42,433 nt of DNA from an uncultured Bacillota bacterium (GTDB taxonomy: Bacteria > Bacillota_I > Bacilli_A > RFN20 > CAG-288), in NCBI GenBank assembly GCA_949282275.1, contig CASDOO010000001.1, positions 1 through 42,433 of the forward strand, in the 5' to 3' direction. Below the pieces are notes generated by a model, which saw only the letters and a list, made by a program, of their open reading frames with translations, searched no databases and was not told where the DNA came from. Positions 8,420-34,934 of the stretch are shown here, in pieces (position 1 is the first letter of the stretch; each line of letters starts with the position of its first letter). Made by a program: the position numbers and the translations under genes.

Positions 8420-8425
8420 GCCATG

Positions 8426-8455: not shown

Positions 8456-8521
8456 GAGGGTAAGGGCTTTCTTTTTTGAAAACCGCTTGTTCCCAATTGA
8501 ACACCGCTTGTTCCCTTTTCG

Positions 8522-8549
8522 TTGCCTATTTTCCCTCGTTTCCTAGAAT
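8522..8549 (+). promoter_or_regulatory. Promoter of the GH3 operon
   Basis: TTGCCT (8522-8527), a 16-base spacer and TAGAAT (8544-8549). The expected start near 8556 falls at the left edge of the palindromic operator at 8558-8577, a typical roadblock or occlusion arrangement. Confidence 0.45.
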
Positions 8550-8557
8550 GGGCGTAA

Positions 8558-8577
8558 TGTCGAAAGCGCTTTTGACA
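8558..8577 (+). promoter_or_regulatory. Palindromic operator of LacI/CcpA type
   Basis: TGTCGAAAGCGCTTTTGACA is a 20-base near-perfect palindrome centred on the CG step (one mismatched pair). The core AAAGCGCTTT matches catabolite-responsive elements and sites of other LacI-family regulators. It lies just downstream of the predicted -10 of the GH3 operon, so binding should repress it. It also contains a TTGACA. Confidence 0.7.
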
Positions 8578-8626
8578 AAGTTTCCCTCTACTTGCAAGGG
8601 AGGGAAGAAAGGAACAAGGTTACCCT

Positions 8627-14291: not shown

Positions 14292-14318
14292 GGGATGCGG
14301 GAATCCGCATCCCTTTTT
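14292..14318 (+). terminator. Rho-independent terminator of the GH3 operon
   Basis: A perfect 9-bp stem GGGATGCGG / CCGCATCCC with a GAAT loop, followed by TTTTT. Confidence 0.92.
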
Positions 14319-14348
14319 ATGACAAGGACTGCCTCTTCCGGGAATAAT
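14319..14348 (+). promoter_or_regulatory. Possible promoter of the GH5 gene
   Basis: ATGACA (14319-14324), an 18-base spacer and AATAAT (14343-14348), directly after the upstream terminator. This gives a leader of about 25 bases holding the AAGAGG ribosome site. Confidence 0.35.
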
Positions 14349-14378
14349 CGGCTATTCTTATATAAGAGGTACATGCAA

Positions 14379-15545
14379 ATGAAACCAAAGGGCTATGTCC
14401 ATAGCATTGGCGAAACAATCTATGACGGCGAGGGCAAACCGCTTGTCCTGAAGGGAGTGAATTTCGGGAATTGGTTTGTCCAGGAATTCTGGATGGCCAC
14501 TTCCTGCCTACCTTCCTTTGAGACGGGACGATATACCCAAAGGCGGGGATTCGAGGCGATGCTCAAGAATCCAAACCTACGACCGGAGGATATTCGCGTT
14601 TTGGAGGCCGTCTATATCGACAACTTCATAAAGGAAGAGGATTTCAAGCGTATTTCGGGGCTTCATTTGAATGCTATCCGAATAAACTTTTCCGTTTACA
14701 ATCTTACGGATGATGGCGAGAATGTCCGCGAAGGTGGCTTTGACAAGCTCGACTGGGCTTTGGACATGGCGGAGAAGTATTCCCTCTATGTCATCCTGGA
14801 TCTTCATGGCGCCATCGGTTCCCAGAACATGGATCACCATTCTGGGGACGACAGCCAGTTCAACCTTTATGGCAACGCGGAAAACAGATGCAAAACAGTC
14901 CACCTATGGGAACAAATTGCCGAACACTTCAAGGATAGGACGATTGTGTGTGGCTATGACCTTCTCAACGAGCCACGGAGAAAGAAACATCGCTATGGCG
15001 GAAAGCGTTGCTTCGATTTCTATGACGAGCTCTACAAGGCCGTAAGGAAGATCGATCCCAATCACATGATCTTCGTCGAGTGTTTTTCTTTCCCGAACCA
15101 TGGCGCCGACTTCCAGGACTACGGCTGGAAGAACATCTGCTACGAATACCACATCTACAATCTGACGCCCATTTCCCAAATGGCATGCCTTCGCTTTTAC
15201 AAGGCGATGCATCGTTTGATGGGATACAAGGCACCGGTCTATGTCGGCGAGTGGAATGCCTGGGGGAAGGACAGGAACTGGGAGAAGACCTTTGCCTATT
15301 TCGATCGCCTTGGCTGGTCCTATACGTCCTGGACCTACAAGATCAACCGGTATCCCCAGGATCATGGCTGTCGTGCCGAAAGGGGACATTGGGGCATGCT
15401 CGAGATAGATGTCAAGCCGGTCGACCTTTCCACTGCCAGCTTCGAGGAAATCCGGGACACATATCGCAAGGTCGGAAGCGAGAATGCCAGGACGACCCAT
15501 GTCTATGAGGTCTATCGGAAGGCGTTCGATAAAGAAGCAAAATAG
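14379..15545 (+). CDS. GH5 family glycoside hydrolase, cytoplasmic
   Basis: A 388-residue TIM-barrel hydrolase of clan GH-A, family 5. Evidence: an N-terminal LVLKGVNFGNWF strand, NAIRINFS, VILDLHGAIGSQ, the acid/base Glu198 in DLLNEPR, His-Tyr in YEYHIY, and the nucleophile Glu291 in VYVGEWNAW. The N-terminal part resembles exo-beta-1,3-glucanase-like members, but the substrate is not certain. There is no signal peptide, so it should act on imported oligosaccharides or glycosides inside the cell. The ATG at 14379 is 9 bases after AAGAGG; an ATG at 14373 is also in frame but only 3 bases from it. It is transcribed alone between two operons. Confidence 0.9.
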   Translation: MKPKGYVHSIGETIYDGEGKPLVLKGVNFGNWFVQEFWMATSCLPSFETGRYTQRRGFEAMLKNPNLRPEDIRVLEAVYIDNFIKEEDFKRISGLHLNAIRINFSVYNLTDDGENVREGGFDKLDWALDMAEKYSLYVILDLHGAIGSQNMDHHSGDDSQFNLYGNAENRCKTVHLWEQIAEHFKDRTIVCGYDLLNEPRRKKHRYGGKRCFDFYDELYKAVRKIDPNHMIFVECFSFPNHGADFQDYGWKNICYEYHIYNLTPISQMACLRFYKAMHRLMGYKAPVYVGEWNAWGKDRNWEKTFAYFDRLGWSYTSWTYKINRYPQDHGCRAERGHWGMLEIDVKPVDLSTASFEEIRDTYRKVGSENARTTHVYEVYRKAFDKEAK

Positions 15546-18951: not shown

Positions 18952-19986
18952 ATGGTTCGCTATGTATTGAAACGACTCGGTCTAGCGGTTGTCACACTTT
19001 TCTTGATTCTTTCATTGACGTTCATCCTGATGAAATTGCTCCCCTTCCAGTCGCCTTCCGGTCCCTTGAGCTCCCAAGTCCCTTTCTATAACGATCAATA
19101 TGCCTTGGGCTATGTCTTTCGGTTTACGGAAGCCCATCCGGAGTATGGAACACCACTTTTTCAATATACGTTAGGAAATGTCAACTACTATTATTACGAA
19201 AAGCCAATCATGCTTCAGTACGGATCCTGGCTTACCGGTATCTTTACAAGATGGGAATGGGGACGTTCGACCAGCATCCGTGAGAATGTCTCCGCAATGA
19301 CCCTGATTGCCGAGGGCCTTCCCTATACGATTCAGGTCAATGTCGTCGCCGTCATCCTTTCTGTTCCGCTTGGCATTCTCCTTGGCATCTGGGCGGCCCT
19401 TCGCAAGAACAAGATGGCCGACCATGTCATCTCGACCCTTGTCATGATCTTCATCTCCGTTCCTTCCTTTGTCTTCGTCAGCTATCTCATCCTCATCTTC
19501 GGCTACAACCTCGGATGGCTTCCGACGTCCTGGCCAGGGCCTGCCTATCCTCTTAGCTATCGTGCCGCAGGCTTCGTCATTCCGGTTCTCGCCCTATCCT
19601 TTGGATCCGTCTGTGGCTATTGTCGCTTTACCCGTGCCGAATTGTGCGAGGTCCTTTCCTCGGATTATCTGCTTCTTGCCAGGACCAAGGGCCTTACGAA
19701 AACCCAATCCGTCATCCGCCATGCCCTTCGCAATGCCATGGTCCCGATTCTTCCTTCCATCCTTGCCGAAATCATCGGCATTCTCGGCGGTTCCATCATC
19801 CTCGAAAATCTCTACAACATTCCCGGCATCGGCAAGCTCTTCATGACCGCCCTCAACAGCCGTGACTACAATGTCCTCATGGTCGATATGGCCGTCTTCA
19901 CCAGCATCTCCCTCGTCGCTGGCGTCATCCTCGATCTCTCCTATGGCTTCCTCGACCCAAGAATTCGTATTGGAGAAAAGAAATGA
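18952..19986 (+). CDS. oppB: Peptide ABC transporter permease
   Basis: A 344-residue inner permease subunit of the OppB/DppB type. The N-terminal MVRYVLKRLGLAVVTLFLILSLTF helix is diagnostic. About six helices follow, and the ATPase-contacting EAA loop is seen near residues 243-280 (ARTKGLTKTQSVIRHALRNAM). The end DLSYGFLDPRIRIGEKK matches the family's 'D.LY...DPRI'. GGGAGG lies 4 bases before the ATG. The stop overlaps the oppC start (ATGATGA), so the two permeases are translated together. Confidence 0.93.
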   Translation: MVRYVLKRLGLAVVTLFLILSLTFILMKLLPFQSPSGPLSSQVPFYNDQYALGYVFRFTEAHPEYGTPLFQYTLGNVNYYYYEKPIMLQYGSWLTGIFTRWEWGRSTSIRENVSAMTLIAEGLPYTIQVNVVAVILSVPLGILLGIWAALRKNKMADHVISTLVMIFISVPSFVFVSYLILIFGYNLGWLPTSWPGPAYPLSYRAAGFVIPVLALSFGSVCGYCRFTRAELCEVLSSDYLLLARTKGLTKTQSVIRHALRNAMVPILPSILAEIIGILGGSIILENLYNIPGIGKLFMTALNSRDYNVLMVDMAVFTSISLVAGVILDLSYGFLDPRIRIGEKK

Positions 19987-21881
19987 TGAACAACGAATCA
20001 AGAAAGCTCGTCTATCAGGATTCCGCCCATATCTCGCACGAAGTCACCATCAGTCCGGATCTTTTCACCTTTCAGCAGGCCGACAAGAAGATCCACGATG
20101 TCTCTTTCTCCGGAAAGCCGACGACCTTTTTCCATGATGCCCTGAAGCGCTTCGCCAAGAACAAGTCCTCCCTTGTCGCCGCGGCCATCATCGGCGTCAT
20201 CCTCGCTCTCTGTTTCATCCTGCCGCCGGCCCTTCCGATGTTCTCCAACACGAATCCCAATTCCTATGAACAGTATCTTTCCCCGAAGCTCTTCCCTGCG
20301 GGAACGGGATTCTGGGATGGAACCGAGAAGGTCGACGAGATTCTCTACAATCCGGAAACGGGCGAGATCATGAACGACTCCTATGAAGAGAGGGCAATCG
20401 TCGATGGTACTTTCAAGACCTATACAGGTTCCTACAATGCCGCGACGGAACTTGGAAAGGGTGGCTATGTCCGCATGATCGCGACGCCGACCAGTCCTGT
20501 CTCCAACCTCACATCGCCTACCTTTGCCGTTTCGGCCTCGGATTCCCTTGATCTTTCCTTCTCCGTCGAGATGGGCCTTGAGGAAATCTATGGCAGCACC
20601 ACCTATGATGTCGTGCTTGTCTACAACGACGAAAACGGTGCCGAGCAGACTCTTCCCCTGCTTTCCAATCTCTCCGTGACCGGCGAGAGCGTCTTTTCCA
20701 CGACGGATGGGACATTGACCAATCCGCTTGCGTCGGCTGGAATCGAAAGCCTTCCCGAGGCAAGACTGCGCTTTGTCCTGGATGCTGCCGAGCAGAGCCA
20801 GGTCAGTCTCTATCTCGAGAACGTCGGCTTCCAGGTCCGAGGACAGGAGACTGCGGCCAGTTTCGATGATGCCAATCGTGCCATCCTGGACAAGACCTAT
20901 ACTTCTACCAACACCATCTCCGCCTATGGCGTCGAAGTCACCTATTGTTCCTTCACCTATGATCCGTATGTCGAGGTCTATGGCGAGCAGACCGCCACGA
21001 TCGGAAAGACACAGCTTGACCGCTGGATCGCGGCGGGGTACTGCACCTACGATTTCAATGTCGGTCCCTCCTCCTTTACGATTTTGGATGATCGCTGTCC
21101 ATTAAGAACGGTCGAGAAACAGAACTATATCACGGGAATCGTCAATGTCCAGGAAGTCGTCGGCACGGTCTCCATGTATCGCTACTATGGCTACTCTTCC
21201 ATGCCTATCCATCTCTTTGGCACCGACAATACCGGAAAGGACATGCTGAAGTATGTTTTCGAGGGGACGCGGAATTCCTTGGGCATTGCCATCCTCATTT
21301 CCGCCATCTGCTTCCTCTTCGGCCTGCTCTATGGTTCCATCGAAGGTTACTTCGGCGGCAACATCGATCTCTTCCTGGAGCGTGTCGTCGATCTTCTCGG
21401 CAACATCCCCTCCATTGTCATCATCACCATCTGCGTCCTTCACTTGGGTCAGAATTTCGGTGTCTTCATCCTCGCAATGTGTCTCACGGGGTGGATTGGC
21501 ACGTCGTCACTGACACGAACCCAGTTCTACCGCTTCAAGCGACGGGAATACGTCTTGGCTTCAAGAACCCTAGGTGCCAATGATGGCAGGCTGATTTTCA
21601 AGCACATCCTTCCCAATGCCATGGGAACCATCATCACTTCCTCTGTTCTTATCATCCCGAGCGTCATCTTCTCCGAGGCGACGATTTCCTACTTAGGCAT
21701 CGGCCTTGCGGGTCTGCCGTCCTTGGGAACGATTCTTTCCAACAACCAGACCTACCTCTCGACATTCCCTTACCTTCTCGTTTTCCCATCGGTCATCATG
21801 GCCTTGCTCATGATTTCCTTCAACCTGTTCGGAAATGGACTGAGGGATGCCTTCAATCCTTCACTGAAAGGAGCGGACTGA
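19983..21881 (+). CDS. oppC: Peptide ABC transporter permease with large extracellular insert
   Basis: A 632-residue OppC/DppC-type permease, about twice the usual 300. A cytosolic N-terminus of about 65 residues leads to helix 1 (SSLVAAAIIGVILALCFILPP). Then about 325 residues (90-412) form an inserted, beta-rich, probably extracellular domain (for example DSLDLSFSVEMGLEEI and SQVSLYLENVGFQVRG). The canonical permease resumes at HLFGTDNTGKDMLKYVFEGTRNSLGIAI, with the EAA-type loop ASRTLGANDGRLIFKHILPNAMGTI and the ending NLFGNGLRDAFNPSLKGAD. The insert sits where the binding protein docks, so it may help receive cargo. The AGGAGC before oppD overlaps its 3' end. Confidence 0.9.
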   Translation: MMNNESRKLVYQDSAHISHEVTISPDLFTFQQADKKIHDVSFSGKPTTFFHDALKRFAKNKSSLVAAAIIGVILALCFILPPALPMFSNTNPNSYEQYLSPKLFPAGTGFWDGTEKVDEILYNPETGEIMNDSYEERAIVDGTFKTYTGSYNAATELGKGGYVRMIATPTSPVSNLTSPTFAVSASDSLDLSFSVEMGLEEIYGSTTYDVVLVYNDENGAEQTLPLLSNLSVTGESVFSTTDGTLTNPLASAGIESLPEARLRFVLDAAEQSQVSLYLENVGFQVRGQETAASFDDANRAILDKTYTSTNTISAYGVEVTYCSFTYDPYVEVYGEQTATIGKTQLDRWIAAGYCTYDFNVGPSSFTILDDRCPLRTVEKQNYITGIVNVQEVVGTVSMYRYYGYSSMPIHLFGTDNTGKDMLKYVFEGTRNSLGIAILISAICFLFGLLYGSIEGYFGGNIDLFLERVVDLLGNIPSIVIITICVLHLGQNFGVFILAMCLTGWIGTSSLTRTQFYRFKRREYVLASRTLGANDGRLIFKHILPNAMGTIITSSVLIIPSVIFSEATISYLGIGLAGLPSLGTILSNNQTYLSTFPYLLVFPSVIMALLMISFNLFGNGLRDAFNPSLKGAD

Positions 21882-21882
21882 T

Positions 21883-23484
21883 ATGCTCGATCCCAAGAAA
21901 TACTGCAAGTTCGACTACGACCATACCGAAAAAGTCCTGGAGGTCAAGGATCTCCACATCGCCTTCAAGACGGATCACGGCATCGTCCATGCCGTCCGGG
22001 GCGTATCCTTCGATCTTCACAAGGGCGAGACTCTTTGTCTCGTTGGCGAGTCCGGCTGCGGAAAGTCCACGGTCTGCAAGGCCCTTATGGGCATCCTTGC
22101 CAACGAAGCCATCATCGAAGGCGGAAAGGCCATCTATGAGGGCGAGGATCTGACGAAGATCTCCGAGGAGGAGTTCCATCGCATCCGCGGCCACAAGATC
22201 GGCATGATCTTCCAGGATCCTCTCTCTTCCCTCAATCCGATCATGAAGATCGGAAAGCAGATCACCGAGGCAACCCTCATCAACAAGAACATCCTGCGCC
22301 AGCGCTATGAGGAGCTCATTTCCAAGGAACTCATCGCCTACAAGAACTGCGTCACCGAATACCGGAGCCAGAAGCAGCTTCTCCAGGAGGAGGCTTCCGT
22401 CTTCGAGACCGACCAAAAGAAGCTCCTCTCCGACAAGTGCTACGACATGAAGAAGGCCGGCGTCAATCCAAACGACATCAGCCGCTATCGTAGCGAGAAG
22501 GAAGAGGAAATCGCAAAGGAAGTCAAGAAGATAAAGGAGAGGAACAAGGTTGCCCTTGTCGAGAACAAGAAGAAGTTCAAGGCAGCAATCCCGCCTCTGA
22601 AGGTGGCCCTTTCCAAGAGAAAGAAGGAAGCCAGGAAGGAAAATCGGATTTACCTTTCCGACCTCAAGGCGGAAACAAGGAAGAAGCTTTCCGAAGTCAA
22701 TGCCGAACTTAAGAAGGAAAACAATCCGGAAAAGAAGAAGGAACTCCTTGCCAAGAAGAACGCCATCCATGAGGAATTCGTCTCCAAGACCAAGGTGACC
22801 AAGAAACAGGCCAAGGAAATGGCCCTCCAGGTCATGCGCGAAGTCGGCATCCCCCAGCCAGAGGTCCGCTTCAAGCAATACCCCTTCGAGTTCTCCGGCG
22901 GCATGCGGCAGAGAATCGTCATCGCTATTGCCCTGACGGCAAATCCGCAGGTCCTCATCTGCGACGAGCCGACGACCGCCCTTGACGTCACCATCCAGGC
23001 CCAGATTCTCGAGCTCATCAACCGTCTCAAGAAGGAACGCAACATGTCCATCATCTTCATCACGCACGATCTGGGAGTCGTCGCCAACATGGCCGACAGG
23101 GTCGCCGTCATGTATGCCGGCAAGATCGTCGAGGTCGGAACCGCCTTCGAGGTCTTCTTCGAGCCGAAGCATCCCTATACATGGGCTCTCCTTTCCTCCA
23201 TCCCCGACATCGATTCCAAGGAAAAGCTCGAGGCCATACCAGGCACGCCGCCCAATCTCGTCAACCCGCCCAAGGGCGATGCCTTTGCTCCAAGGAACAA
23301 GTACGCCCTTGCCGTCGACTACGAATACGAGCCGCCCCTCTTCCAGCTCAGCCCGACCCATTTCTGCTCATCCTGGCTTCTCTACAAGGACTTCGCTCCC
23401 AATGCCGTCCCTCCGAAGATCGTCACGTCCCGTATCGAGAAGGCCCTGAAAGACGAGGTGAAATATGAACAACGAAAAGATTGA
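21883..23484 (+). CDS. oppD: Peptide ABC transporter ATPase with coiled-coil insert
   Basis: A 533-residue OppD-type ATPase. Walker A is at 55-62 (GESGCGKS, K61), the Q-loop Gln is at 111 (IFQDPLSSLNP), the signature is at 337-342 (FSGGMRQ), Walker B Asp/Glu is at 361-362 and the H-loop is in ITHDLGV. The C-terminal oligopeptide/dipeptide extension (AIPGTPPNLVNPPKGDAFAPRN) is present, but the Cys-rich iron-sulfur motif is not complete. Between Q-loop and signature there are 226 residues, while its partner OppF has 56; so about 170 extra residues, mostly Lys/Glu-rich helix (about 140-310), are inserted in the helical subdomain. The last 20 bases overlap oppF. Confidence 0.92.
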   Translation: MLDPKKYCKFDYDHTEKVLEVKDLHIAFKTDHGIVHAVRGVSFDLHKGETLCLVGESGCGKSTVCKALMGILANEAIIEGGKAIYEGEDLTKISEEEFHRIRGHKIGMIFQDPLSSLNPIMKIGKQITEATLINKNILRQRYEELISKELIAYKNCVTEYRSQKQLLQEEASVFETDQKKLLSDKCYDMKKAGVNPNDISRYRSEKEEEIAKEVKKIKERNKVALVENKKKFKAAIPPLKVALSKRKKEARKENRIYLSDLKAETRKKLSEVNAELKKENNPEKKKELLAKKNAIHEEFVSKTKVTKKQAKEMALQVMREVGIPQPEVRFKQYPFEFSGGMRQRIVIAIALTANPQVLICDEPTTALDVTIQAQILELINRLKKERNMSIIFITHDLGVVANMADRVAVMYAGKIVEVGTAFEVFFEPKHPYTWALLSSIPDIDSKEKLEAIPGTPPNLVNPPKGDAFAPRNKYALAVDYEYEPPLFQLSPTHFCSSWLLYKDFAPNAVPPKIVTSRIEKALKDEVKYEQRKD

Positions 23485-24928
23485 GAACGCCTACCTGGAA
23501 AGCAATCCCATCGAGGAAGAAACCGAACTGACCGAGTCCGCCACGAAGATGGAAACCGCGACGGGAGAAGGAAGGGTCATCGACAGGGATGACAGCGAAT
23601 TCGAGGAACACGTCATCGACGATGCTCTCCACGAAGTCCCCGAGCACAAGGGCCATGTCAAGGTCAAGGAAGAATACGTCCGCGACAATATCCTTCTTTC
23701 CGTCAACCACCTCAAGCAGTTCTTCCCCATGGGAAAGTGGCCGAAGAGGTCCTGGCTGAAGGCCGTCCATGATGTCTCCTTCCAGATCAAGAAGGGCGAA
23801 TGCCTCGGCCTTGTCGGCGAATCCGGCTGCGGAAAGACGACGACGGGAAGAAGCATCATCCGTCTTTACGACATCACGTCCGGCTCGGTCTACTACAAGG
23901 GCGTCCGCATCTCCGGCGGAACGCGCTGGAACGAGAAGGAAATCAAGTGGGTGACCCTCCGCGGAAAGAAGCGCATCAAGGAAATCCAAAAGGATCCGAA
24001 CCTGTCCGAAGAGGAAAAGGGAAAGCAGATCCAGGCCATCCGCGAGAAAATCAGGAACACGACGGAAATCCAGAAGAAAAAGATTGCCCAGATCCGTTAC
24101 GACAATCGTCACGTCGACAAGAAGCTGCTGAGCCAGATCCAGATGATCTTCCAGGACCCGATCGATTCCCTCGATCCGAGAATGACGGTCGAGGACATCA
24201 TCCAGGAAGGTCTTCGCATCCAGGGCTTCCGCAATCGCGAGGAAAACCACAGGAAGACCGTCGAGGTCCTCGACGAGGTCGGCCTCATCCCGGAATATTG
24301 CTCCCGCTATCCCCACGAGTTCTCCGGCGGACAGAGGCAAAGAATCGGCATCGCCAGGGCCCTGATCATGAATCCGGAGCTTCTCATCTGCGACGAGCCG
24401 ATTTCCGCCCTCGATGTCTCCATCCGTGCCCAGATCATCAACCTGCTCAACGAACTGAAGAGGACAAGACACCTCTCGATGCTCTTCATCGCCCACGATC
24501 TCTCCGTCGTCAAGTACTTCTGCGACAACATCGCCGTCATGTACTTCGGCAACATGGTCGAGAAGGCCTCTTCGGATGAGCTCTTCCGCCATCCTCTCCA
24601 TCCCTATACGAAGTCGCTTCTTTCCGCCATCCCGAAGCCAAACCCGCTTTCGGAAAAGAGAAGGAAACGTATCATCTACGACCCACGGTCCGTTCATGAC
24701 TATTCTTCCCAGAAGCCGACCTTCCGGGAAATCGTCCCCGGGCACTGGGTCCTTTGCAACGATGCGGAAGAGAAGCGGTATCTTGAGGAAATCCGCCGGG
24801 AGGACGCCAGAGAGGCGAACAAGAGCAATCCGCTCTACCTCTCCCTGACGGAGGATCTCTTCGAGGACAACGACAATTTGGACCTTGCCTCGCTTTTGCC
24901 CGAGGAAGTGCCGCACATCGTCGAATGA
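23465..24928 (+). CDS. oppF: Peptide ABC transporter ATPase with N-terminal extension and insert
   Basis: A 487-residue OppF-type ATPase. An acidic extension of about 70 residues comes first. Walker A is at 118-125 (GESGCGKT, K124), the Q-loop Gln is at 230 (IFQDPIDSLDP), the signature starts at 286 (FSGGQRQR), Walker B is in LLICDEPISALD and the H-loop in IAHDLSV. K-to-Q spacing is 106 residues against 50 in OppD, so about 56 residues of charged helix (near 165-220) are inserted before the Q-loop. The C-terminus is also long and acidic. It overlaps the end of oppD by 20 bases and closes the operon before a strong terminator. It powers import together with OppD. Confidence 0.92.
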   Translation: MNNEKIENAYLESNPIEEETELTESATKMETATGEGRVIDRDDSEFEEHVIDDALHEVPEHKGHVKVKEEYVRDNILLSVNHLKQFFPMGKWPKRSWLKAVHDVSFQIKKGECLGLVGESGCGKTTTGRSIIRLYDITSGSVYYKGVRISGGTRWNEKEIKWVTLRGKKRIKEIQKDPNLSEEEKGKQIQAIREKIRNTTEIQKKKIAQIRYDNRHVDKKLLSQIQMIFQDPIDSLDPRMTVEDIIQEGLRIQGFRNREENHRKTVEVLDEVGLIPEYCSRYPHEFSGGQRQRIGIARALIMNPELLICDEPISALDVSIRAQIINLLNELKRTRHLSMLFIAHDLSVVKYFCDNIAVMYFGNMVEKASSDELFRHPLHPYTKSLLSAIPKPNPLSEKRRKRIIYDPRSVHDYSSQKPTFREIVPGHWVLCNDAEEKRYLEEIRREDAREANKSNPLYLSLTEDLFEDNDNLDLASLLPEEVPHIVE

Positions 24929-24934
24929 GAATCG

Positions 24935-24964
24935 CCGCCTGCTTTCGAGAGCGGGCGGTTTTTT
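24935..24964 (+). terminator. Rho-independent terminator of the opp operon
   Basis: CCGCC-T-GCT pairs with AGC-G-GGCGG around a short loop, then TTTTTT. It starts 6 bases after the oppF stop. Confidence 0.9.
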
Positions 24965-25001
24965 GATACGGAAACCTTCAAAGCCGTGGAAAAGACGTCC
25001 A

Positions 25002-25026
25002 TTTCCCATGGGGAATAGGCTATAAT
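25002..25026 (+). promoter_or_regulatory. Promoter -10 with inverted repeat, MFS-GH2 gene
   Basis: A perfect TATAAT (25021-25026) lies 24 bases before the start codon. The -35 is poor. Immediately upstream, TTCCCATGGGGAA (25002-25014) is a near palindrome in the spacer, a likely operator for a local regulator or activator. Confidence 0.5.
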
Positions 25027-25049
25027 TTCCTGGAAAGAGGATTACACCC

Positions 25050-28000
25050 ATGGAAAAGACCAATACGAAGGTGACGCTTCGCCAATGGCTTGTTTTCGTT
25101 TTCGTCGGTCTTGCCGGCCAGTTCGCATGGTCGATCGAGAACATGTATCTCAACACCTATCTTTACTATCTCTCGACGACAGGGCAGGGCTTCGATCCAT
25201 CGCCGATGGTGGCATGGACGACGGCCCTAAGCGCCATAACGGCGACGATCACGACGATCTTCATGGGCTCCCTGACGGACAAGGTAAGGAAACGTAAGAT
25301 CTTCATTGCCCTTGGCTATGTCCTCTGGGGCATCGCCACGGCTTCCTTTGGCTTGGTCGACGTCGGCAATGCCCAGAGCATCATTCCCGTCAGCATGAGT
25401 GCCATGACCGCCGCGATCCTTGTCATCGTCATTGACTGCATCATGACCTTCCTGGGATCGACGGCAAACGATGCGGCCTTCAATTCCTATGTGACCAAGA
25501 ATGTCCGTGACGAGAACCGCGGAAAGGTCGAAGGCGTCCTTTCGATTCTTCCCCTTGTCGCGATGCTGATCATCTTCGTTGCCCTCAATGGCCTGACGGC
25601 TTCCGGGCAATGGGATCTCTTCTTCTATATCATCGGCGGAATCGTCATTCTCGTCGGCATCGTTTCCTTCTTCCTCATTCCGCGGGAGGAAAAGGAAGAG
25701 CCCAGCGACAGGAAGCTTCTTCCCATCCTTGCCGAAGGCTTCCTTCCCAAGACGGTCAAGGCGAACAAGAATCTCTATCTTGTCCTCCTTTGCTATTTCG
25801 TCTATGGCGTCGCCATCCAGGTCTTCTTCCCCTATCTCATGGTCTACGTGGAAAGGACCGTCCAGGTTCCAAACAGCGGCGATTCCTTCCTGACGCCCTT
25901 TGCCATCGTCATGGCGATTGCCTTGATTCTCGGTTCTGCCGGAAGCGTCCTCATCGGTTTCCTCTCCGATCACCGGGGAAAGACGAAGATGATCGTCCCG
26001 ACGACGGCCATCCTCGCATTGGGCCTCCTTCTGCTTTTCTTCGCCCCGGACATTTCGGGGGACATCGGACGCTATGCCTATACCGCGCTTTCCGGCATGG
26101 TCATGATCCTTGGCTATGTCGCCATGCCGACGATCCTCAATTCCCTTGTCCGCGACTATATTCCGAAGGGCAAGGAAGGCAGCTTCATGGGCGTGCGCAT
26201 GGTCTTTGTCGTCGCCCTGCCGATGTGCATCGGTCCCTTTATCGGCAATGCCCTGAACCAGATGACCGGCGAGTCCTACTTCAACGAATATGGCGTCGAA
26301 GCTTCCCTGCCGTCGAAGTACGGCTATCTTGTCGGTCTTGTGCTTCTCCTTCTGATATTCATCCCCTACTTCTTCCTCAGGAAGAACACTCGCTACGACA
26401 GGAACGAAGGCTATCTCCTCAAGGACCTCGTTCCCCAGAAGACGCTTCCCGATGTCCACAGGGAAGAGCATCCGCGTCCTTCCTTCGCAAGGGAAAACTT
26501 CCTCTCCCTTGAGGGCTATTGGGACTATGCCATCCAAAAGGACGAAAGGATTCCGGAGAACTACGAAGGCAGGATACGCGTTCCCTTCGCCGTCGAGTCC
26601 CCGATGAGCGGCGTCAACCGTCTTCTTTCCCCGGACGAATACCTCTTCTACCGGCGGCACGTCGAACTGGACGAGCGCTTTGACAGGGAGCACGTCTTCC
26701 TCTTCTTCGAGGGCATCGACCAAGTGGCCGACGTCTATGTCGACGGCGCCCTGGTCTGCCATCATGACGGTGGCTATACGCGCTTCTTTGTCGATGTCCG
26801 TCCCTATCTCAAGGGGCCTTCCTTCGAACTTGTCGTCCGCGTAAAGGACGTGACGGATTCCTCCCATCGGATGACGGGGAAGCAGCGTCTCAAGCCGAAT
26901 GGCTGGTTCTATTCTTCCTCAAGCGGCATCGTCAAGAGCGTCTATCTGGAGGCGGCCGGCAAGGAAGCGATACTGGGAATCGACCTGGAACCGGAATTCG
27001 ACGAGAAATGCGTCCATGTCCTTGTCCGTGCCAAGGACGATTTCCCTGTCCGGATAAAAATCGGCGACATGCCGGAAAGGATCCTTTCGACAAACAGGGA
27101 AGAGAGGATTCCGCTTCTTCCCTTTAGGCCGTGGTCGCAAGAGAAACCCTATCTCTACTCAGTCCGCGTCGAAAGCCAGGATGATGTCGTGACGTCCTAC
27201 TTCGGCGTGAGGAAGATCGAGATCGGGACGGGAAAGGACGGAAAGAGGCATATCTATCTCAATGGAAACAAGGTCTTCCTCAATGGCCTTCTCGACCAAG
27301 GCTACTATCCTTTCGGCGGATTGACGGCAGAATCCTACGACCTCTTCCGGAAGGACATCGAGAATGCCAAGATCCTGGGCTTCAACTGTCTGAGGATGCA
27401 TGTCAAGGTCGAGGAGGAAAGGTTCTACTATGAGGCGGCAAGACAGGGCATGCTCCTTATCCAGGACATTCCCAACGGCGGCGAACATATCCCCTTCTTC
27501 AACGTCGTCTTCCCGAGAACAAGCGTCTTCCTCTTCAATCACAGCTTCTTCCTGACCGAGAAGGGCTATGGCAGGAAGGACGAACAGGGAAGGAAGAAGT
27601 TCATCCAGGATAGCCTTTCCATCGTCCATGACCTGACCAACAATCCTGCCGTCCTTGTCATCACCATCTTCAACGAGGCATGGGGCGAATTCCAGCCGGA
27701 GAAGCTTTATTCCATCCTCCGGGAGGAATACCCGCATTTCCTTTACGATACGGCGTCGGGATGGCTGGACACGCCAAAGTCCGATTTCTTCTCCATCCAT
27801 AGCTATACCCTTCCCCACATTCCAAGACGGAACAAGGATCGTCCCTATGTCCTGACCGAGATCGGCGGGGCCTCGTTCAAGATCGATGGCCACTACTTCT
27901 ATCCCAAGGTCTATGGGCATCATGTCTGCCGGAGCCTGGATGCCTTCAACAGGCGGTATCGGAAACTGTACGAAGGCTTCTTCCGTCAGATCGAGAACGG

Positions 28001-28148
28001 AAGCCTCAACGGCCTGATCTATACCCAGCTCAATGACTGCGAGACGGAGGCAAATGGTCTCTACACGCTCGACAGGGAATGGCTCAAGGCCGACGTGCGG
28101 ATGGTCCACGACATCAACAAGGAAATCCAAAGGCTTTCCAAGGAATAA
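25050..28148 (+). CDS. MFS sugar transporter fused to GH2 glycosidase
   Basis: A 1032-residue fusion in one uninterrupted frame. Residues about 10-442 form a 12-helix major facilitator of the glycoside/SLC45-like sugar carrier type, with the loop motif GSLTDKVRKRK after helix 2 and GFLSDHRGKTK in the second half. After a linker (about 443-485) a family 2 glycoside hydrolase begins at LEGYWDYAIQKD: sugar-binding sandwich (about 486-640), Ig-like domain, and TIM barrel with acid/base Glu876 (TIFNEAWGE) and nucleophile Glu937 (LTEIGGAS). Both catalytic residues are present. The carrier's C-terminus is normally cytosolic, so the enzyme should face the inside and cut sugar as it enters. AGAGG precedes the ATG by 10 bases. 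It is a monocistronic unit with its own promoter and terminator. The substrate (beta-galactoside, glucuronide or other) is not determined. Confidence 0.92.
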   Translation: MEKTNTKVTLRQWLVFVFVGLAGQFAWSIENMYLNTYLYYLSTTGQGFDPSPMVAWTTALSAITATITTIFMGSLTDKVRKRKIFIALGYVLWGIATASFGLVDVGNAQSIIPVSMSAMTAAILVIVIDCIMTFLGSTANDAAFNSYVTKNVRDENRGKVEGVLSILPLVAMLIIFVALNGLTASGQWDLFFYIIGGIVILVGIVSFFLIPREEKEEPSDRKLLPILAEGFLPKTVKANKNLYLVLLCYFVYGVAIQVFFPYLMVYVERTVQVPNSGDSFLTPFAIVMAIALILGSAGSVLIGFLSDHRGKTKMIVPTTAILALGLLLLFFAPDISGDIGRYAYTALSGMVMILGYVAMPTILNSLVRDYIPKGKEGSFMGVRMVFVVALPMCIGPFIGNALNQMTGESYFNEYGVEASLPSKYGYLVGLVLLLLIFIPYFFLRKNTRYDRNEGYLLKDLVPQKTLPDVHREEHPRPSFARENFLSLEGYWDYAIQKDERIPENYEGRIRVPFAVESPMSGVNRLLSPDEYLFYRRHVELDERFDREHVFLFFEGIDQVADVYVDGALVCHHDGGYTRFFVDVRPYLKGPSFELVVRVKDVTDSSHRMTGKQRLKPNGWFYSSSSGIVKSVYLEAAGKEAILGIDLEPEFDEKCVHVLVRAKDDFPVRIKIGDMPERILSTNREERIPLLPFRPWSQEKPYLYSVRVESQDDVVTSYFGVRKIEIGTGKDGKRHIYLNGNKVFLNGLLDQGYYPFGGLTAESYDLFRKDIENAKILGFNCLRMHVKVEEERFYYEAARQGMLLIQDIPNGGEHIPFFNVVFPRTSVFLFNHSFFLTEKGYGRKDEQGRKKFIQDSLSIVHDLTNNPAVLVITIFNEAWGEFQPEKLYSILREEYPHFLYDTASGWLDTPKSDFFSIHSYTLPHIPRRNKDRPYVLTEIGGASFKIDGHYFYPKVYGHHVCRSLDAFNRRYRKLYEGFFRQIENGSLNGLIYTQLNDCETEANGLYTLDREWLKADVRMVHDINKEIQRLSKE

Positions 28149-28150
28149 GG

Positions 28151-28185
28151 AAAAGACGGCAGCAAGTCGTGACTGCCGTCTTTTT
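28151..28185. terminator. Bidirectional terminator between convergent genes
   Basis: AAAAGACGGCAG (28151-28162) pairs with CTGCCGTCTTTT (28173-28184), with A-run and T-run on the two sides, so it can stop both the MFS-GH2 gene and the minus-strand gene ending at 28203. Confidence 0.9.
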
Positions 28186-28202
28186 GATGTTGTGCTCTCT
28201 TC

Positions 28203-28928
28203 CTACTCGAGATTGGCGTACTGATCGTCGTCGACAGGCTCGAGCCATTCGTTTGACGAACCTTCCGTCGGGACGGATATGGCGATGTGCGTGAACCAGG
28301 AATCCTTCGTCGCGCCATGCCAGTGCTTGACTTCCGGCGGGATGATGACGACATCGCCGGGATGAAGCTTCCTTGGCTTTTCCTGCCATTCCTGGTACCA
28401 ACCCTCGCCGTCCGTGCAGAGGAGGATCTGACCGCCCTTGTGGTGGATATGCCAATTGTTGCGGCAGGCAGGCTCGAATGTGACGTTGGCGATGTTGGCC
28501 TCGGTGGAGACCAAGGGCTTGAGATAGCTCTTGCCGATGAAGTAGGGGGCAAAGGCCTTGTTTTCCTCTCCCAGCCCGAAGAGCGGTTCCTTCGGTTCGG
28601 AAGCGTCCTCAGCATAGACTTCCCGGACGAGGGGGAAGATTGCCCAGGCATTGGGCCAGCCGACATAGAAGGCAAGATGGGTGACGATCTCGACCATTTC
28701 CTCTTTCGTGACGCCGTTCTTCCTGGCCGTCTGGAGATGGGACTTCAGGGAATTGTCGAAGATGCCCTTTGTCATCAAGGCGGTGACGGTGATGATGCTT
28801 CTTGTCTTGAGGGGAAGCCTGTCCTCCCTGGACCAGACCTCGCCGAAGAGGACGTCATCGTTGAGCCGTGCGAATTCCGGGGCGAGGTCGCCGAGGAGCT
28901 TTCTTCCTGCCGTTTGCTTTATGGCCAT
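28203..28928 (-). CDS. Carboxymuconolactone decarboxylase-like / cupin two-domain protein
   Basis: A 241-residue cytosolic protein. Residues about 1-105 form a CMD/AhpD-like helical domain (FGEVWSREDRLPLKTRSIITVTALMTKG and VTKEEMVEIVTHLAFYVGWPNAW). Residues about 130-235 form a cupin with metal-ligand-like motifs WHIHHKGGQILLCTDGEGWYQEW and LHPGDVVIIPPEVKHWHGA. The CxxC of AhpD peroxidases is absent, so decarboxylase, lactonase or another role is open. The ATG at 28928 is preceded by AAGGAAAG. It is divergent from a TetR gene, and a perfect palindrome lies in its promoter, so the TetR very likely represses it. Confidence 0.88.
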   Translation of the reverse strand: MAIKQTAGRKLLGDLAPEFARLNDDVLFGEVWSREDRLPLKTRSIITVTALMTKGIFDNSLKSHLQTARKNGVTKEEMVEIVTHLAFYVGWPNAWAIFPLVREVYAEDASEPKEPLFGLGEENKAFAPYFIGKSYLKPLVSTEANIANVTFEPACRNNWHIHHKGGQILLCTDGEGWYQEWQEKPRKLHPGDVVIIPPEVKHWHGATKDSWFTHIAISVPTEGSSNEWLEPVDDDQYANLE

Positions 28929-28957
28929 GTTCTTTCCTTTCCGGGTGCCCAATATAA

Positions 28958-28972
28958 TTGACACGCTGTCAA
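28958..28972. promoter_or_regulatory. Palindromic operator in the divergent promoter region
   Basis: TTGACA-CGC-TGTCAA is a perfect 6+6 inverted repeat with a 3-base centre. It lies just upstream of a minus-strand TATATT (28955-28950), the likely -10 of the CMD/cupin gene, so a bound TetR would block that promoter. Confidence 0.6.
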
Positions 28973-29749: not shown

Positions 29750-29774
29750 AGTCTCAACGAAAGGAGACTATTAT
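29745..29774. promoter_or_regulatory. Perfect inverted repeat spanning -10 to start codon
   Basis: ATAATAGTCTC (29745-29755) and GAGACTATTAT (29764-29774) are exact reverse complements around AACGAAAG. The left arm covers the -10 and the right arm covers part of the AAAGGAG ribosome site and the start codon. Because transcription should begin near 29756, the left arm is mostly not transcribed; so a DNA-bound repressor is more likely than an RNA hairpin. Confidence 0.65.
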
Positions 29775-32220
29775 GGCTCTCATCCAATTGGATCATGTCT
29801 CGAAATTCTATTCACAAGGAAAGACTGCGGCAAAGGGCCTTGACGATGTTTCCTTGTCTTTTGACAAAGGCGAATTCGTTGCCATAACGGGCGAATCCGG
29901 TTCCGGCAAGACGACCCTCCTCAATGTCATCACCCTGATGGACAACTATGACGAAGGCGATATCCTTTTCGAAGGCAAGAGCACGGCCGATTTTTCCGAG
30001 GACGATCTTCTTTCCTTTAGGCGGGACTATGTTTCCTTCGTCTTCCAGGAATACAACCTCATCCCGAACCTCAGTGCACGGGAGAATCTTGTCATCGGCC
30101 TCGTCAACAAGGGATACGACCGCAAGGAAGCCCGGAAGAAGGCCGAGGAAGCCTTGAAGGAATGCGGCCTCGAAAAGAGGATGCACGAGAAAGTCGTTCG
30201 CCTCTCTGGCGGCGAAAGGCAAAGGGTCGTCATCGCAAGGGCCTTGGCTCTTGATAGCCCGATCATTGCCTTCGACGAGCCGACGGGAAACCTTGACTCG
30301 AAGACCGGAAAGGAAATCATCGATCTCATCGACAGGATCAAGGAAAATCGCCTCATCCTTTACGTGACCCACGACTATGCATCCATCGAAAGGCTCTGCA
30401 ACAGGCATATCGTCCTGGAAAACGGCCGCCTTTCCTCGGATGTCCAACTTGGCGAAAGGAATATCACGAAGGAAACGGAAAAGGTGGAAAGAGGGAAGAA
30501 GAATTCTCTCTCCTCGCTCCTTCTTTCCTGCTTTTCCTTGATCTTTTCGGCTCCCAAGAAGTTGGCCTTGATGTGTCTTTCCGTCTTTCTTTTGACATGC
30601 TCCACGATCGGAATCGTGTTGGCAGGGACGTTCGCCGTCAATAATTTCAATAATGGCATGACTACCCTGTACAATCGTTATCATCCTGTCGCTTTTTCGG
30701 ACAGAAGCACGAACATGCTCTATGTCTTTGGTGATGATGAGACGCCTATTCCCGAAGCGGCACCGGAAGGCTCCGTGGCTTATCAATCCGTTTCCTATCT
30801 TCCCTTCGTGAACCTCTTTGTCGGGATCGGACGGCGGAACGTTGATGAAATAGACTATTGGAGTGATTATAACTCTTATTATCGAGTATCGAAAACCATC
30901 GAACTTCCCGATGAAGCCAATCTCTCATATGGCGAAAAAGGCGGAGATGAAGGTTTCTATGTTCTTTTCAGCGAAGACCTATCATCCGATACAAGAACGG
31001 AAAACATGGACTTTCTGAAGGACTATGTCGGAAGGCCAAGCCGTTTCGAAACCCAGTCTTTCCCGATAATGTCCCTCGCCTCCGTTCTTAATTCGGGAAA
31101 CGATATGTCGGAAGGCGAGAGGAGGCTTGCGAACTATATCGAATCCCTGCCTCTACTCGGCGTCGGCTTTGGGGATACGGGAAGAAACTCGGTTTCCGTG
31201 TGCTTTCCTTTGGCGACGGCCGAGAAAATCAGTCAGGAAGTCGAGGCCTGTTTCAAGAGCCTTTTGCTGGATCCGCCTTCGTCGCTTGATTATCAGACGA
31301 ATTTCTACCTTCCGGTCCCCCTGGACTCGACGAGGTGCCTTTCCGTTTCCTATCATGACACGCCATTCATCATGGAGCACTACCTGATGGGCCTAGGAGA
31401 AAGGACGAAAGATGACATGATGGAGCCATTCCTCTTCTTTTCCGATTCCTGGGCAGGCAAAGAGAATGAGATCCTCGTTACTTTCAACGGAACGGAACAC
31501 ACCCTTTTTGACCTTTTGTCCCTCTTCGATGATTTAATTGACATGGACAAGGCTTTTTCAAGGCCGGTTTCCGAAGAGGAAGGCCGGGCTCCGGGAAGTG
31601 TCTATGCGACCAGCATTAGCGACTACATTGCCGATTTTCCGGCTTCTGCCAATCTTCCTTTATTCGCCCTTCTTCTTGTCCGCACCAAGTCGATGGCAAC
31701 TGTTTATTACCCGAGTTCCGCTTCTTGTGAGCAGGGGCTTAAGACACTTCAGGACGATGGCTACCGGGCTTATTCTTCCAATCATCGGTATTGGGTGGGG
31801 GAGGAGCCGACGTCCCTGGACTACATCCAATACTGCTTTTCCGCCATTTTCATCGTCTTCATTGTCCTTGTCATCCTTTTTGTCTTCTTCTTCGTTACCT
31901 ATCCCATCATCAAGGCCATCCTCAAGCGCTACAACGCCGATTTTGCCGTCCTTGCCACGCTTGGATACCCGCGCAAATCCCTCTTCCTTTTCCGCTCCGT
32001 CATCATCCTGCTTCCGATGATGCTTACCTATATCGTCGTTTCCGCCATTGTCGTCACCTTCCTGCATTTTGCGGCCCCGGGCTTTGTCCTTCCCTATCTC
32101 TTCGTCGTCGGATTCTTCCTCTTGCTTCTCTTTGGTGCCCTGCTTCTTATTCGCTTCTACCGTGCGGAAAGCAAACGCACCCTCAATAGTATCCTCAAGG
32201 ACAGTGGAGGTCAAAGATGA
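29773..32220 (+). CDS. MacB-like ABC transporter, ATPase fused to FtsX permease (first)
   Basis: An 815-residue exporter subunit. The N-terminal ATPase (1-225) has Walker A with K46 (GESGSGKTT), the Q-loop FVFQEYN, signature LSGGERQ at 144-150, Walker B with D168-E169 and the H-loop YVTHDYA. The membrane part has one helix (about 259-285), a large extracellular domain (about 285-690), then three C-terminal helices (FtsX arrangement). This family exports or pulls on peptides, toxins or cell-envelope substrates mechanically. AAAGGAG is 6 bases before the ATG. It overlaps the next gene by 4 bases (ATGA); the two probably form a heterodimer. Expression may switch through the G9 promoter. Confidence 0.9.
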   Translation: MALIQLDHVSKFYSQGKTAAKGLDDVSLSFDKGEFVAITGESGSGKTTLLNVITLMDNYDEGDILFEGKSTADFSEDDLLSFRRDYVSFVFQEYNLIPNLSARENLVIGLVNKGYDRKEARKKAEEALKECGLEKRMHEKVVRLSGGERQRVVIARALALDSPIIAFDEPTGNLDSKTGKEIIDLIDRIKENRLILYVTHDYASIERLCNRHIVLENGRLSSDVQLGERNITKETEKVERGKKNSLSSLLLSCFSLIFSAPKKLALMCLSVFLLTCSTIGIVLAGTFAVNNFNNGMTTLYNRYHPVAFSDRSTNMLYVFGDDETPIPEAAPEGSVAYQSVSYLPFVNLFVGIGRRNVDEIDYWSDYNSYYRVSKTIELPDEANLSYGEKGGDEGFYVLFSEDLSSDTRTENMDFLKDYVGRPSRFETQSFPIMSLASVLNSGNDMSEGERRLANYIESLPLLGVGFGDTGRNSVSVCFPLATAEKISQEVEACFKSLLLDPPSSLDYQTNFYLPVPLDSTRCLSVSYHDTPFIMEHYLMGLGERTKDDMMEPFLFFSDSWAGKENEILVTFNGTEHTLFDLLSLFDDLIDMDKAFSRPVSEEEGRAPGSVYATSISDYIADFPASANLPLFALLLVRTKSMATVYYPSSASCEQGLKTLQDDGYRAYSSNHRYWVGEEPTSLDYIQYCFSAIFIVFIVLVILFVFFFVTYPIIKAILKRYNADFAVLATLGYPRKSLFLFRSVIILLPMMLTYIVVSAIVVTFLHFAAPGFVLPYLFVVGFFLLLLFGALLLIRFYRAESKRTLNSILKDSGGQR

Positions 32221-34934
32221 TCACGCTAGAACATGTCTCAAAGAGCTTCCAAAACGGGAAAGAACGTCTGCAGGCCTTGGATGATGTCTCGCTTTCCCTT
32301 CCCGACAAGGGGATGGTCTTTCTGTTGGGGAAGTCGGGCTCCGGAAAGAGCACCCTGTTGAATCTCGTCGGTGGCCTGGACACGTATGATGGGACAATCG
32401 ACTATGGCTCGCTTGGCAAGGTCAGCAGGAGAAACATGGAAGCCTTCCGACGGGAAAACATCGGCTACGTCTTCCAGGACTTCTATCTCGACGAGGAGTC
32501 GACCGTCTTCGAGAATATCCGCCAGGGCCTGAGCATCAGCGGCATCGATGACATGGAAGAGGTCCGGAAAAGGGCAGACAGTGCCCTGAAGGCCGTTTCC
32601 CTCTCCCTCTACAAGCGTCGCAAGGCCAGCCAGCTGTCCCTCGGACAGAAACAGCGCGTTGCCATTGCCAGGGCTATTGCCGCGAAGCCTAAGATCCTTC
32701 TTGCCGATGAGCCGACCGGAAACCTCGACAGCAAGAACGGCGAGAATGTCATGTCGATCCTTAAGGGCCTGAGTCGGGACATCCTCGTCCTTGTCGTCAG
32801 CCACAACGAAGGCCTCGCCTATCGTTTTGCCGATGTCCTTTATCGGATCGCGGATGGGAAAATCCAGGAAGAAGAGCGGATTGCTCCTGCCAAGGAAGCC
32901 GTGTCTCTCCCCAAGGGTGTCGAGACGGAAAGGATGGATGGGGAAATCGGATCGATTGCCATCACCCTCTACCAGGAAAAGGGCATCCTTGCCAAGGAGA
33001 GCATCTCGATTCTTCGGACGGGCGGAAAGACATATATCCATCTTCCGAAAGGGTTCGAAGTCGTTGCGGAAGAAATTCAGCCAGTCGTAAAAGCGGAAGT
33101 TCCGGAGACGAATCCCTCGGATGTGCGATTCGACACGGCCGGCTTCGACGATTCCAAAAGAAAAGGGGGTCTATTCCATAAGGCGCTTTTCCGGAACATG
33201 ATGAGCCGCAAGGGAAATCGGATCCTTGTCGTCATCTCGATCCTTCTTGCCCTTATCATCCCTATCTGCCTCGGGCTTCGGTTCACGATGTATGAGCAAA
33301 GAAAAAGCATGGTTATCGATGATTTTTCGGAGACAAGGCAGCTTGGTGTCCTCAACAATGGCGTGGAATACAATCGGATCGAAGGCTATTTGGACTTGCT
33401 CGAGGATCCGGATTCCGGCATCCTTTCGCCCTATCTTGTCGAATCGGAGGTTGCGGCACAGGATTTCGAGGTCTTGAAACCGCCCTATGGTATCGAAAGC
33501 AATGATAACGCCTTTTATGGAATTGGCTTCCTTTCCTTGGAATGTCTTTCCCGGGACGAGGTTCGCCTTTTGCCTTCCTCTCTCTCCTTTTCCTCCCTCT
33601 CGTATGGCGATATCCTTATCGATAAGTACCTTGCCATGTCGCTTCTTTCTTCCCTCAAGGCACAGGATTACGATGACATCATCGGAACGAAATGGCACTT
33701 CTACGGCGTCGACGGAAGGAAGAAGGACTATACGATTGCCGGAATCCTCGACGGCAATTCCCGGACAAAGAGAATCTATTTTGCCGGTCTGGACTCAAAG
33801 GATGTCTTCTTCCTGTCTGCCCTCTCGAGAAGCCAGGATCCGGAAGCGACCTTCGATCTTTCGGACCTTCGGATACGGATCCTGACCGCTTCGATGCCTG
33901 GCGGGGAAAACAAAAATGCCTTCGGGTCCAAGGTCTTTCGTGAAGAGATGCGGCTATGCTCGATGTTTTTACAAGGAACATTTGTCGATTTTGATGAGAC
34001 CCTTGCCGATAGCGCCTATCCTGAGGATGAGGGGAAGAAAGTCCTCTACCTTCCGGAAGGAAAGGCGGACGTGCTTGAACGCTTCACCGCAAACCTGATC
34101 GATAGAACATCAAGGATTCCTATCCTGAACGCGGATAACTATCCGGATGTCACATATGTCGATACGCTTTCCGCTCCCTTGAAAGAAAAGCAAATCGGTA
34201 TCTATCTTTCCAAGGACCTCTATGATTCCATTGCCCAGAATGTCAGCCGTTTCCCCGTTCTGGACGAATATTCCAGCATGTCCCTGGATTCCGATCCCTT
34301 CGAAGTCGTCGTCCAAGGCTATTTCACCGGGGATGGCGACCTTCCTTCCATCCTTGAGGAGGACTTCCGTTTGCCTCTGCTGTTCTCTTTCTCCACGACC
34401 GGAGGCCTGGACTCGAATTCGCTTTATGGTTCCTCGGGCATCTACTTCCGCTTCCATTGCCGCAATGCCGAGGAGACGATTTCCTATCTGGAGGAGAATC
34501 GCCCGGAGGTCATGACGCTGTCTGCGAAGACGTATTTCGAACACGCCGTCGACACCAAGGACATCGACCTCTTCTATGTCGCCATCCTTGTGGTGACCGC
34601 ATTCCTTCTTGCTCTCTACGCCATCTTCTTCAAGACGCGCCTTGCCCAGGACGAGAGCGTCCTCGCCATCTATCGTGCCTTGGGGCTGGACAAAAAGGTC
34701 ATTCTTGCCCATTATCTTTGCGATATCCTCGGGAAGGTTACGCTTTTCTTCGTCCTTCCCTATATTGCCGTTGCCCTGTTTTCCTTCTTCTTCTGGGACA
34801 TTTTCGCCCCCGTATACGTCCATGTCCTGGCCATCCTTATTACCTATCTCCTTGTCGTCCTCTTTGTCCTTCTTCCCCTTGGCCTGACCTTGTTGAAGAC
34901 GCCGCGCGAGATGCTTCTGAAGAAGGATATCTAG
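32217..34934 (+). CDS. MacB-like ABC transporter, ATPase fused to FtsX permease (second)
   Basis: A 905-residue partner of the previous protein with the same layout. The ATPase has Walker A with K44 (GKSGSGKST), Q-loop YVFQDFY, Walker B with D164-E165 ([13 protein letters not shown]) and H-loop VVSHNEG. The signature reads LSLGQKQ (140-146) instead of LSGGQ, so one of the two composite ATP sites of a heterodimer may be weakened. A cytosolic linker (about 225-320) precedes helix 1 ([19 protein letters not shown]), a long extracellular domain follows, and then three helices at the C-terminus. It starts inside the end of the first gene. Confidence 0.9.

Follow-up and report, generated by a model that had tools for sequence, protein, structure and literature searches.

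We analyzed a stretch of 42,433 nucleotides (contig CASDOO010000001.1) from an uncultured Bacillota bacterium, hereafter called the window, and found that one of its genes (25050..28148, plus strand) encodes a carrier of the major facilitator superfamily (MFS) joined to a hydrolase of glycoside hydrolase family 2 (GH2). The sequences show clearly that carrier and enzyme are covalently linked, that the active site is intact, and that the pairing recurs among relatives. We infer further that the carrier imports a galactofuranoside, that the enzyme acts on this cargo, and that uptake would depend on a coupling ion and may involve channelling. The reading that we favor, with a probability of about 0.5, is that the fusion imports a small beta-D-galactofuranoside and hydrolyzes it at the cytosolic exit of the carrier.

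Architecture of the fused protein

A preliminary description of this DNA, made from the letters alone, had reported a frame running without a stop from an MFS carrier into a GH2 enzyme. Indeed, the frame opens with ATG and continues for 1032 codons plus a stop codon with no internal stop, the carrier (residues 1-445; 25050..26384) being placed ahead of the GH2 hydrolase (residues 457-1032; 26418..28145), all on the plus strand. The two are separated by a short tether (approximately residues 446-456; 26385..26417), the boundaries of which are accurate to a few residues; namely, the last predicted helix ends at residue 447, and the structure 7sf2 superposes from residue 457. As no in-frame ATG, GTG, or TTG is present between codons 431 and 519, a separate full GH2 protein is not expected from the window gene. 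The sequence N-x-G-Y-L, found where the N-terminal peptide of GH2 starts, was considered as a docking motif in the linker and set aside; it is common in the window's branch, in fused and split forms alike, and rare in the other rows, and hence looks lineage-specific.

The search of protein databases for the same MFS-GH2 order, which the preliminary description had proposed, gave 148 matches, and among the 120 listed were 111 full-length fusions (the window's cluster counted), three partial fusions (83-90% coverage), and six GH2 proteins alone. The other 110 full-length fusions range in identity from 87% down to 31%, and the window's own 90% cluster comprises four member sequences, found on six contigs; some of these proteins sit in databases as “MFS transporter” or “MFS family permease.” Among 196 genomes of the window's order, at least 125 are matched with an E-value no higher than 1e-90, and at least 18 have an open frame through the junction, the 18 being the top rows of the match table for the order when sorted by E-value. 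One of these 18 genomes (G002) lacks the initial portion of the carrier; there, the match starts from model position 175, near a contig end. The fused frame at this locus (L107; 1-500, plus strand) opens with sequence unlike the carrier, which joins at approximately model position 175-187, so that either a truncated gene or a chimeric contig would account for this odd start. The fusion is also present in the cultured Acetatifactor muris DSM 23669 (L021). The window belongs to a draft genome of 39 contigs with 84% completeness, in which a long frame might result from an assembly or sequencing error; nonetheless, the 110 further full-length fusions, the fused genomes of the order, and the cultured strain refute such an explanation, to which we give practically no weight. 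Judged from these sequences, the fusion is no artefact, and the same architecture is widely conserved.

The N-terminal half had been described as a full carrier with 12 helices (residues ~10-442), and this assignment holds: MFS_1 (PF07690) matches residues 40-396 above the cut-off (E 2.5e-31), 12 long transmembrane helices are predicted, and MFS chains superpose over residues 4-450. Lysine and arginine residues in the inter-helix segments number 28 inside versus 2 outside, with the helix ends set by hand from the predicted structure, and this bias implies that both ends of the carrier are cytosolic (N-in/C-in) and that the enzyme would thus be inside the cell. The cytosol-facing C terminus, which the earlier account had assumed, is therefore retained as a prediction. 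When the MFS half was searched with phmmer against the PDB, no match was obtained at E 0.1, and a profile of 17 carrier sequences gave ten weak matches there (best 3wdo, 8.9e-5), of which the majority were LacY. The signs of kinship with the GPH sugar:cation symporters (UidB and MelB) are mixed, as MFS_2 (PF13347) matches 11 of the 17 carrier sequences but not the window protein.

As for the C-terminal half, GH2_N matches residues 530-633 (E 1.2e-11), and the TIM-barrel model PF02836 gave no match in the Pfam scan of the window protein. Despite this missing match, the whole GH2 fold, with its sandwich, Ig-like, and (beta/alpha)8 barrel domains, superposes on known GH2 structures in the structure prediction of the fusion (mean predicted local distance difference test score, pLDDT, 88.0). 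The closest solved structures by sequence and fold are 7sf2, 9j6n/9j6m, and 7xyr (the four best), and 9j6m and 7xyr represent GH2_18 and GH2_19, respectively, i.e., the two furanosidase subfamilies (PMC12243196, cited here and below from part of its text). The NE motif and the nucleophile as described in that source fit N875-E876, with E876 (27675..27677, plus strand) as the acid/base, and E937 (27858..27860, plus strand), while T992 (28023..28025, plus strand) corresponds to the group III mark given there, which replaces the loop-8 Trp. All of N875, E876, E937, R782, H784, T992, E1000, and N1002 are invariant in the fusions (111/111). T992 was paired by hand with the Trp in the VWNFAD stretch of Escherichia coli UidA (MAFFT misplaced that loop), and its counterpart is YTQ/YTE in 7sf2 and 9j6n. 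By these motifs and folds, the GH2 half is assigned to group III, i.e., the GH2_18/GH2_19 furanosidases, with no distinction between the two subfamilies. Secretion signals are found in ~80% of GH2_18 and in only ~10% of GH2_19 members (PMC12243196), so that a cytosolic member is not odd for group III. Beta-glucuronidase, the best NCBIfam name, was rejected; the NxK motif is absent, its position being occupied by E1000-A-N1002, and PRK10150 scores 72.5 bits versus a cut-off of 544.

The complete GH2 hydrolase with both catalytic glutamates, as claimed earlier, is borne out by comparison with ORF1110, the enzyme of 9j6m and a beta-D-galactofuranosidase from Streptomyces sp. JHA19, for which 18 alanine mutants are reported (PMC4560423, again cited from part of its text). 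E876 and E937 are aligned with E464 and E530 of ORF1110, the Ala mutants of which have 2.6% and 15.2% activity, respectively. The numbering in that paper was related to the printed chain with an offset of 23, which fits 17 of the 18 mutants (D336 does not fit). Among the eight mutants with less than 16% activity, D330, E405, D423, E464, E530, and E594 correspond to D712, E788, D806, E876, E937, and E1000, all of which are invariant in the 111 fusions; of the remaining two, D201 corresponds to D600, the conservation of which is at least 90%, and D500 corresponds to no conserved residue.

Fused and split states among relatives

We then compared 133 loci, namely sets of 80 (best matches), 19, 13 (from genomes of the order), and 20, together with the window; because best match and selection by hand decided which loci entered, the counts given here are not a census. 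Apart from four loci with the carrier only, the 129 loci can be categorized as fused (34, of which 31 are distinct), split with the carrier first on the same strand (34, of which 32 are distinct), GH2 without this carrier beside it (52), and loci with less than 1500 nucleotides upstream, which are unassignable to either state (9). Relatives in which the two parts are always separate genes had been named in the preliminary description as grounds for giving up its idea, and the presence of fused beside split loci removes that objection. An in-frame start near the junction is absent from 13 of the 31 distinct fused genes, the window included; among the other 18, two have a junction start with a ribosome-site-like stretch.

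Carrier and enzyme never share a frame in the 34 split pairs (the enzyme is in +1 in 30 and in +2 in four), and its earliest usable start codon is located 4-29 nucleotides before the end of the carrier stop codon, with the start chosen by a rule, from 60 nucleotides upstream, that leans toward overlap. In 14 of these loci, furthermore, the conserved GH2 domain itself starts before the end of the carrier stop codon. At one locus (L109 in G013; 8011-9440, minus strand), the carrier is in two frames beside an intact GH2 gene, which would be either a pseudogene or an assembly error.

The history of the two states was followed in quick maximum-likelihood trees, which carry support from the Shimodaira-Hasegawa-like approximate likelihood ratio test (SH-aLRT) alone and do not tell gain from loss. 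For the GH2 domain, the tree requires seven changes of the fused label, with five forced by well-supported branches; the corresponding numbers are six and four on the MFS tree and six and five on a GH2 tree made earlier from 100 loci. Also, the genus of the window (g1) has fused genes in G000, G005, G007, and G002 (the genome lacking the first carrier part) and split genes in G003, G006, G008, G009, G011, and G013, and another genus (g27) has fused genes in at least 13 genomes and split genes in G072, G086, G143, and G153. As far as the trees indicate, the state has switched between fused and unfused several times, and both g1 and g27 hold both forms.

Probable cargo, mode of action, and alternatives

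The nearest characterized relative of the GH2 half, as identified by sequence, is ORF1110, a galactofuranose (Galf)-specific enzyme; it has Galf-ase activity only, and three other enzymes of its strain act on arabinofuranose (Araf) too (PMC4560423). Genes of the sugar pathways were surveyed in 39 genomes (the window's own and 38 relatives), 12 of which have a fused or an adjacent split pair (G000, G002, G003, G005, G006, G007, G008, G009, G011, G013, G019, and G035). Galactokinase GalK (PF10509) is encoded in 11 of the 12 pair genomes versus 15 of the 27 others (Fisher two-sided p 0.034, with relatedness uncorrected), and arabinose isomerase AraA (PF02610) in one of the 12, the window's own, versus two of the 27; many of the surveyed genomes are incomplete, and single gene absences thus mean little. 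In the window's own genome, a GalT family match is found on the same contig as GalK. The distribution of GalK and AraA moderately favors galactofuranosides, and an alpha-L-arabinofuranoside would be the second-choice cargo. The same genome also encodes UDP-galactopyranose mutase (G000:C18:29978-30577), so that glycans containing galactofuranose may be made by the organism itself.

In the mechanism that we propose, the MFS carrier would take up a small beta-D-galactofuranoside, the GH2 domain on its tether of about ten residues would cut it at the cytosolic exit, and the released galactose would enter the Leloir route via GalK and GalT. The overlap of the split genes implies that their products are likely made together, and these may form the same pair without the covalent link; a change in the length of the overlapping stretch would merge the two frames and thereby create a fusion. 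Extended further, the proposal describes a one-protein import-and-hydrolyze machine, in which the intact glycoside would be barely free in the cytosol, fusions would come from repeated merging of frames, and unfused pairs would form the same complex. This extended form we consider doubtful.

Of the channelling device imagined in the preliminary description, the single frame, the predicted cytosolic C terminus, and the short tether are in agreement with our results, but the parts are often unlinked in relatives, which weighs against a strong claim of channelling. The 34 split loci and the 52 lone GH2 relatives among the 129 loci count against it, as do the four carrier-only loci (L162, L163, L164, and L165, from four genomes of the window's order), where the carrier scores 604-657 bits with no enzyme within the 5 kb fetched and can hence also serve elsewhere. 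Such frequent splitting indicates that the covalent link is dispensable and that selection in these lineages keeps the pair rather than the covalent bond. Several further observations weigh against the favored reading. Conservation is lowest in the linker, which across 110 fusions averages 25% identity to the window protein (versus 54% for MFS and 41% for GH2), and the predicted template modelling score (pTM) of 0.68 means that the relative placement of the MFS and GH2 domains is not fixed by the model. The NE motif is kept in 34/34 fused, 34/34 split, and 52/52 lone GH2 proteins and is, therefore, a trait of the branch and not of the fusion. Structurally, the carrier is best matched by MFS proteins with various functions, the majority of which do not import sugars; the probabilities given by hhalign for the carrier profile are weak with UidB (4%) and MelB (20%), and that with LacY (89%), the highest for the three carriers compared from E. 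coli, covers 143 columns in one half only, with shifted halves. Finally, GalK is also found in the 15 relatives without the pair, AraA is present in the window's own genome, and the neighbors of five fused loci (L005, L007, L016, L021, and L105) lend no pathway support.

Another explanation, unlikely but far from negligible, is that the fusion is a near-neutral joining of overlapping genes whose products are made together anyway, serving the same pathway without channelling and being gained and lost by drift. This would be consistent with the forced changes (at least five on the GH2 tree and four on the MFS tree), with the two genera holding both states, with the overlap in every split locus, and with the weak conservation of the linker. 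A supported set of 13 fused rows on the MFS tree (98*), comprising Lachnospiraceae, Oscillospiraceae, other Clostridia, and one genome of the window's order (G035), has no split member, however, and both full-length halves are retained in 111 fusions down to 31% identity; the set matching 98* on the earlier GH2 tree also includes rows with GH2 alone and one split row. It appears quite improbable that the GH2 domain serves chiefly to sense the substrate and regulate the carrier, in the way that LacS, the lactose transporter of Streptococcus thermophilus, is regulated by IIA. The lactose transporter with MFS and PTS_EIIA domains does provide a precedent for a C-terminal cytosolic domain on an MFS sugar carrier (PMC8990778, cited from part of its text), but if the domain were purely a sensor, the loss of some catalytic residues would be expected, and N875, E876, and E937 are kept not only in the 111 fusions found by the search but also in 34/34 fused and 34/34 split loci. 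With regard to the substrate, the GH2 half might act on alpha-L-arabinofuranosides, i.e., plant arabinan or arabinoxylan fragments, instead of galactofuranosides, given that GH2_18 and GH2_19 together include both activities (PMC12243196) and that the window's own genome encodes AraA. We regard this as rather unlikely, because AraA accompanies the pair in so few genomes (1/12 versus 11/12 for GalK) and the nearest assayed relative is Galf-specific (PMC4560423).

Gene neighborhood and known systems

The fused gene likely stands alone. A hairpin resembling an intrinsic terminator (24934..24959, plus strand) is located just after the upstream opp genes, and a palindromic terminator-like hairpin, listed on the minus strand only, follows the stop codon (28151..28184); in the region 24700-28400, nine terminator-like sites were found versus 3.8 expected from shuffles. 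By eye, TATAAT (25021..25026, plus strand) is a possible -10 element of the gene's own promoter, and AGAGGA (25036-25041, plus strand), which precedes the ATG, is a possible ribosome site. A sigma-70 promoter scan around the gene start gave no match, and the promoter is thus a reading by eye.

Neighboring genes were inspected in 12 of the 133 loci, i.e., the five fused loci mentioned above, two split loci (L110 and L112), one lone-GH2 locus (L043), and the four lone-carrier loci (L162-L165), and no pathway common to these neighbors was found. Pfam-less proteins of 1040-1287 amino acids are encoded near fused or split genes (L007:243-3362, L005:2064-5228, and L112:1401-5261); the carrier of L164 follows a DUF1349 gene, and that of L165 is near two Cthe_2159-type carbohydrate-binding proteins. 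In the window itself, a GH3 protein of 1094 amino acids (8627-11911, plus strand) has its C-terminal domain (79-386) ahead of its N-terminal domain (791-980), and a GH5 glycosidase gene is found at 14295-15545 (plus strand). In the opp genes at 19983-23484 (plus strand), the OppC_N (48-99) and permease (447-629) domains of OppC are set apart by ~350 extra residues, and the ATP-binding cassette (ABC) domain of OppD is stretched over 39-365; among NCBIfam models, OppD and OppF are best matched, below the cut-off, by those of a minimal cell, MMSYN1_0167 and MMSYN1_0168. Downstream of the fused gene are a carboxymuconolactone-decarboxylase-like domain fused to a cupin (28203-28964, minus strand) and two adjoining proteins of 815 and 905 amino acids (29773-34934, plus strand), each composed of an N-terminal ABC ATPase and a long Pfam-less remainder.

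In terms of its parts, the nearest known system is uidA-uidB of E. coli, which performs uptake followed by cytosolic hydrolysis. The genes for the GH2 enzyme and the glucuronide:H+ symporter adjoin with a 4-nucleotide overlap (record positions 1694260-1694263), but they encode two proteins, with the enzyme gene first and with the NxK motif in GH2; in the window gene, in contrast, the carrier comes first, both parts are in one protein, ExN replaces NxK, and there is no clear UidB profile match. By analogy, the nearest precedent for the coupling of a carrier with an enzyme is LplT-Aas, in which an MFS carrier and a cytosolic enzyme are, in many bacteria, encoded by two genes of a single operon and, in others, apparently by one open reading frame, and for which a complex with substrate tunnelling has been proposed (PMC11416262, cited from part of its text). 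LplT-Aas is, however, a lysophospholipid flippase with an acyltransferase, i.e., its substrate is a lipid and its enzyme is unrelated, and the signs of coupling in the MFS-GH2 pair are gene overlap and recurrent fusion. The lactose transporter of S. thermophilus likewise consists of an MFS carrier with an extra cytosolic domain and is clustered with a GH2 beta-galactosidase gene, but the fused domain is IIA of the phosphotransferase system (PTS) and not a hydrolase (PMC8990778). ORF1110 (GH2_18; PDB 9j6m and 9j6n) differs in having a signal peptide and an AbfB domain and no carrier (PMC4560423). No MFS-GH2 fusion was found among the papers listed in searches of the open-licence PMC literature, as judged by titles and abstract starts, and neither “MFS” nor “transporter” occurs in the main text of the paper on GH2 subfamilies (PMC12243196). 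While the sequences are already public, the MFS-GH2 architecture is apparently undescribed.

Metabolic channelling between a carrier and an enzyme is easily proposed and hard to test. Here, fused and split pairs occur as natural matched counterparts, even in one genus, so that any gain from tethering would be directly measurable. If the fusion imports and hydrolyzes a galactofuranoside as we favor, furthermore, the MFS-GH2 proteins name candidate routes of galactofuranoside uptake for uncultured gut and rumen Bacillota.

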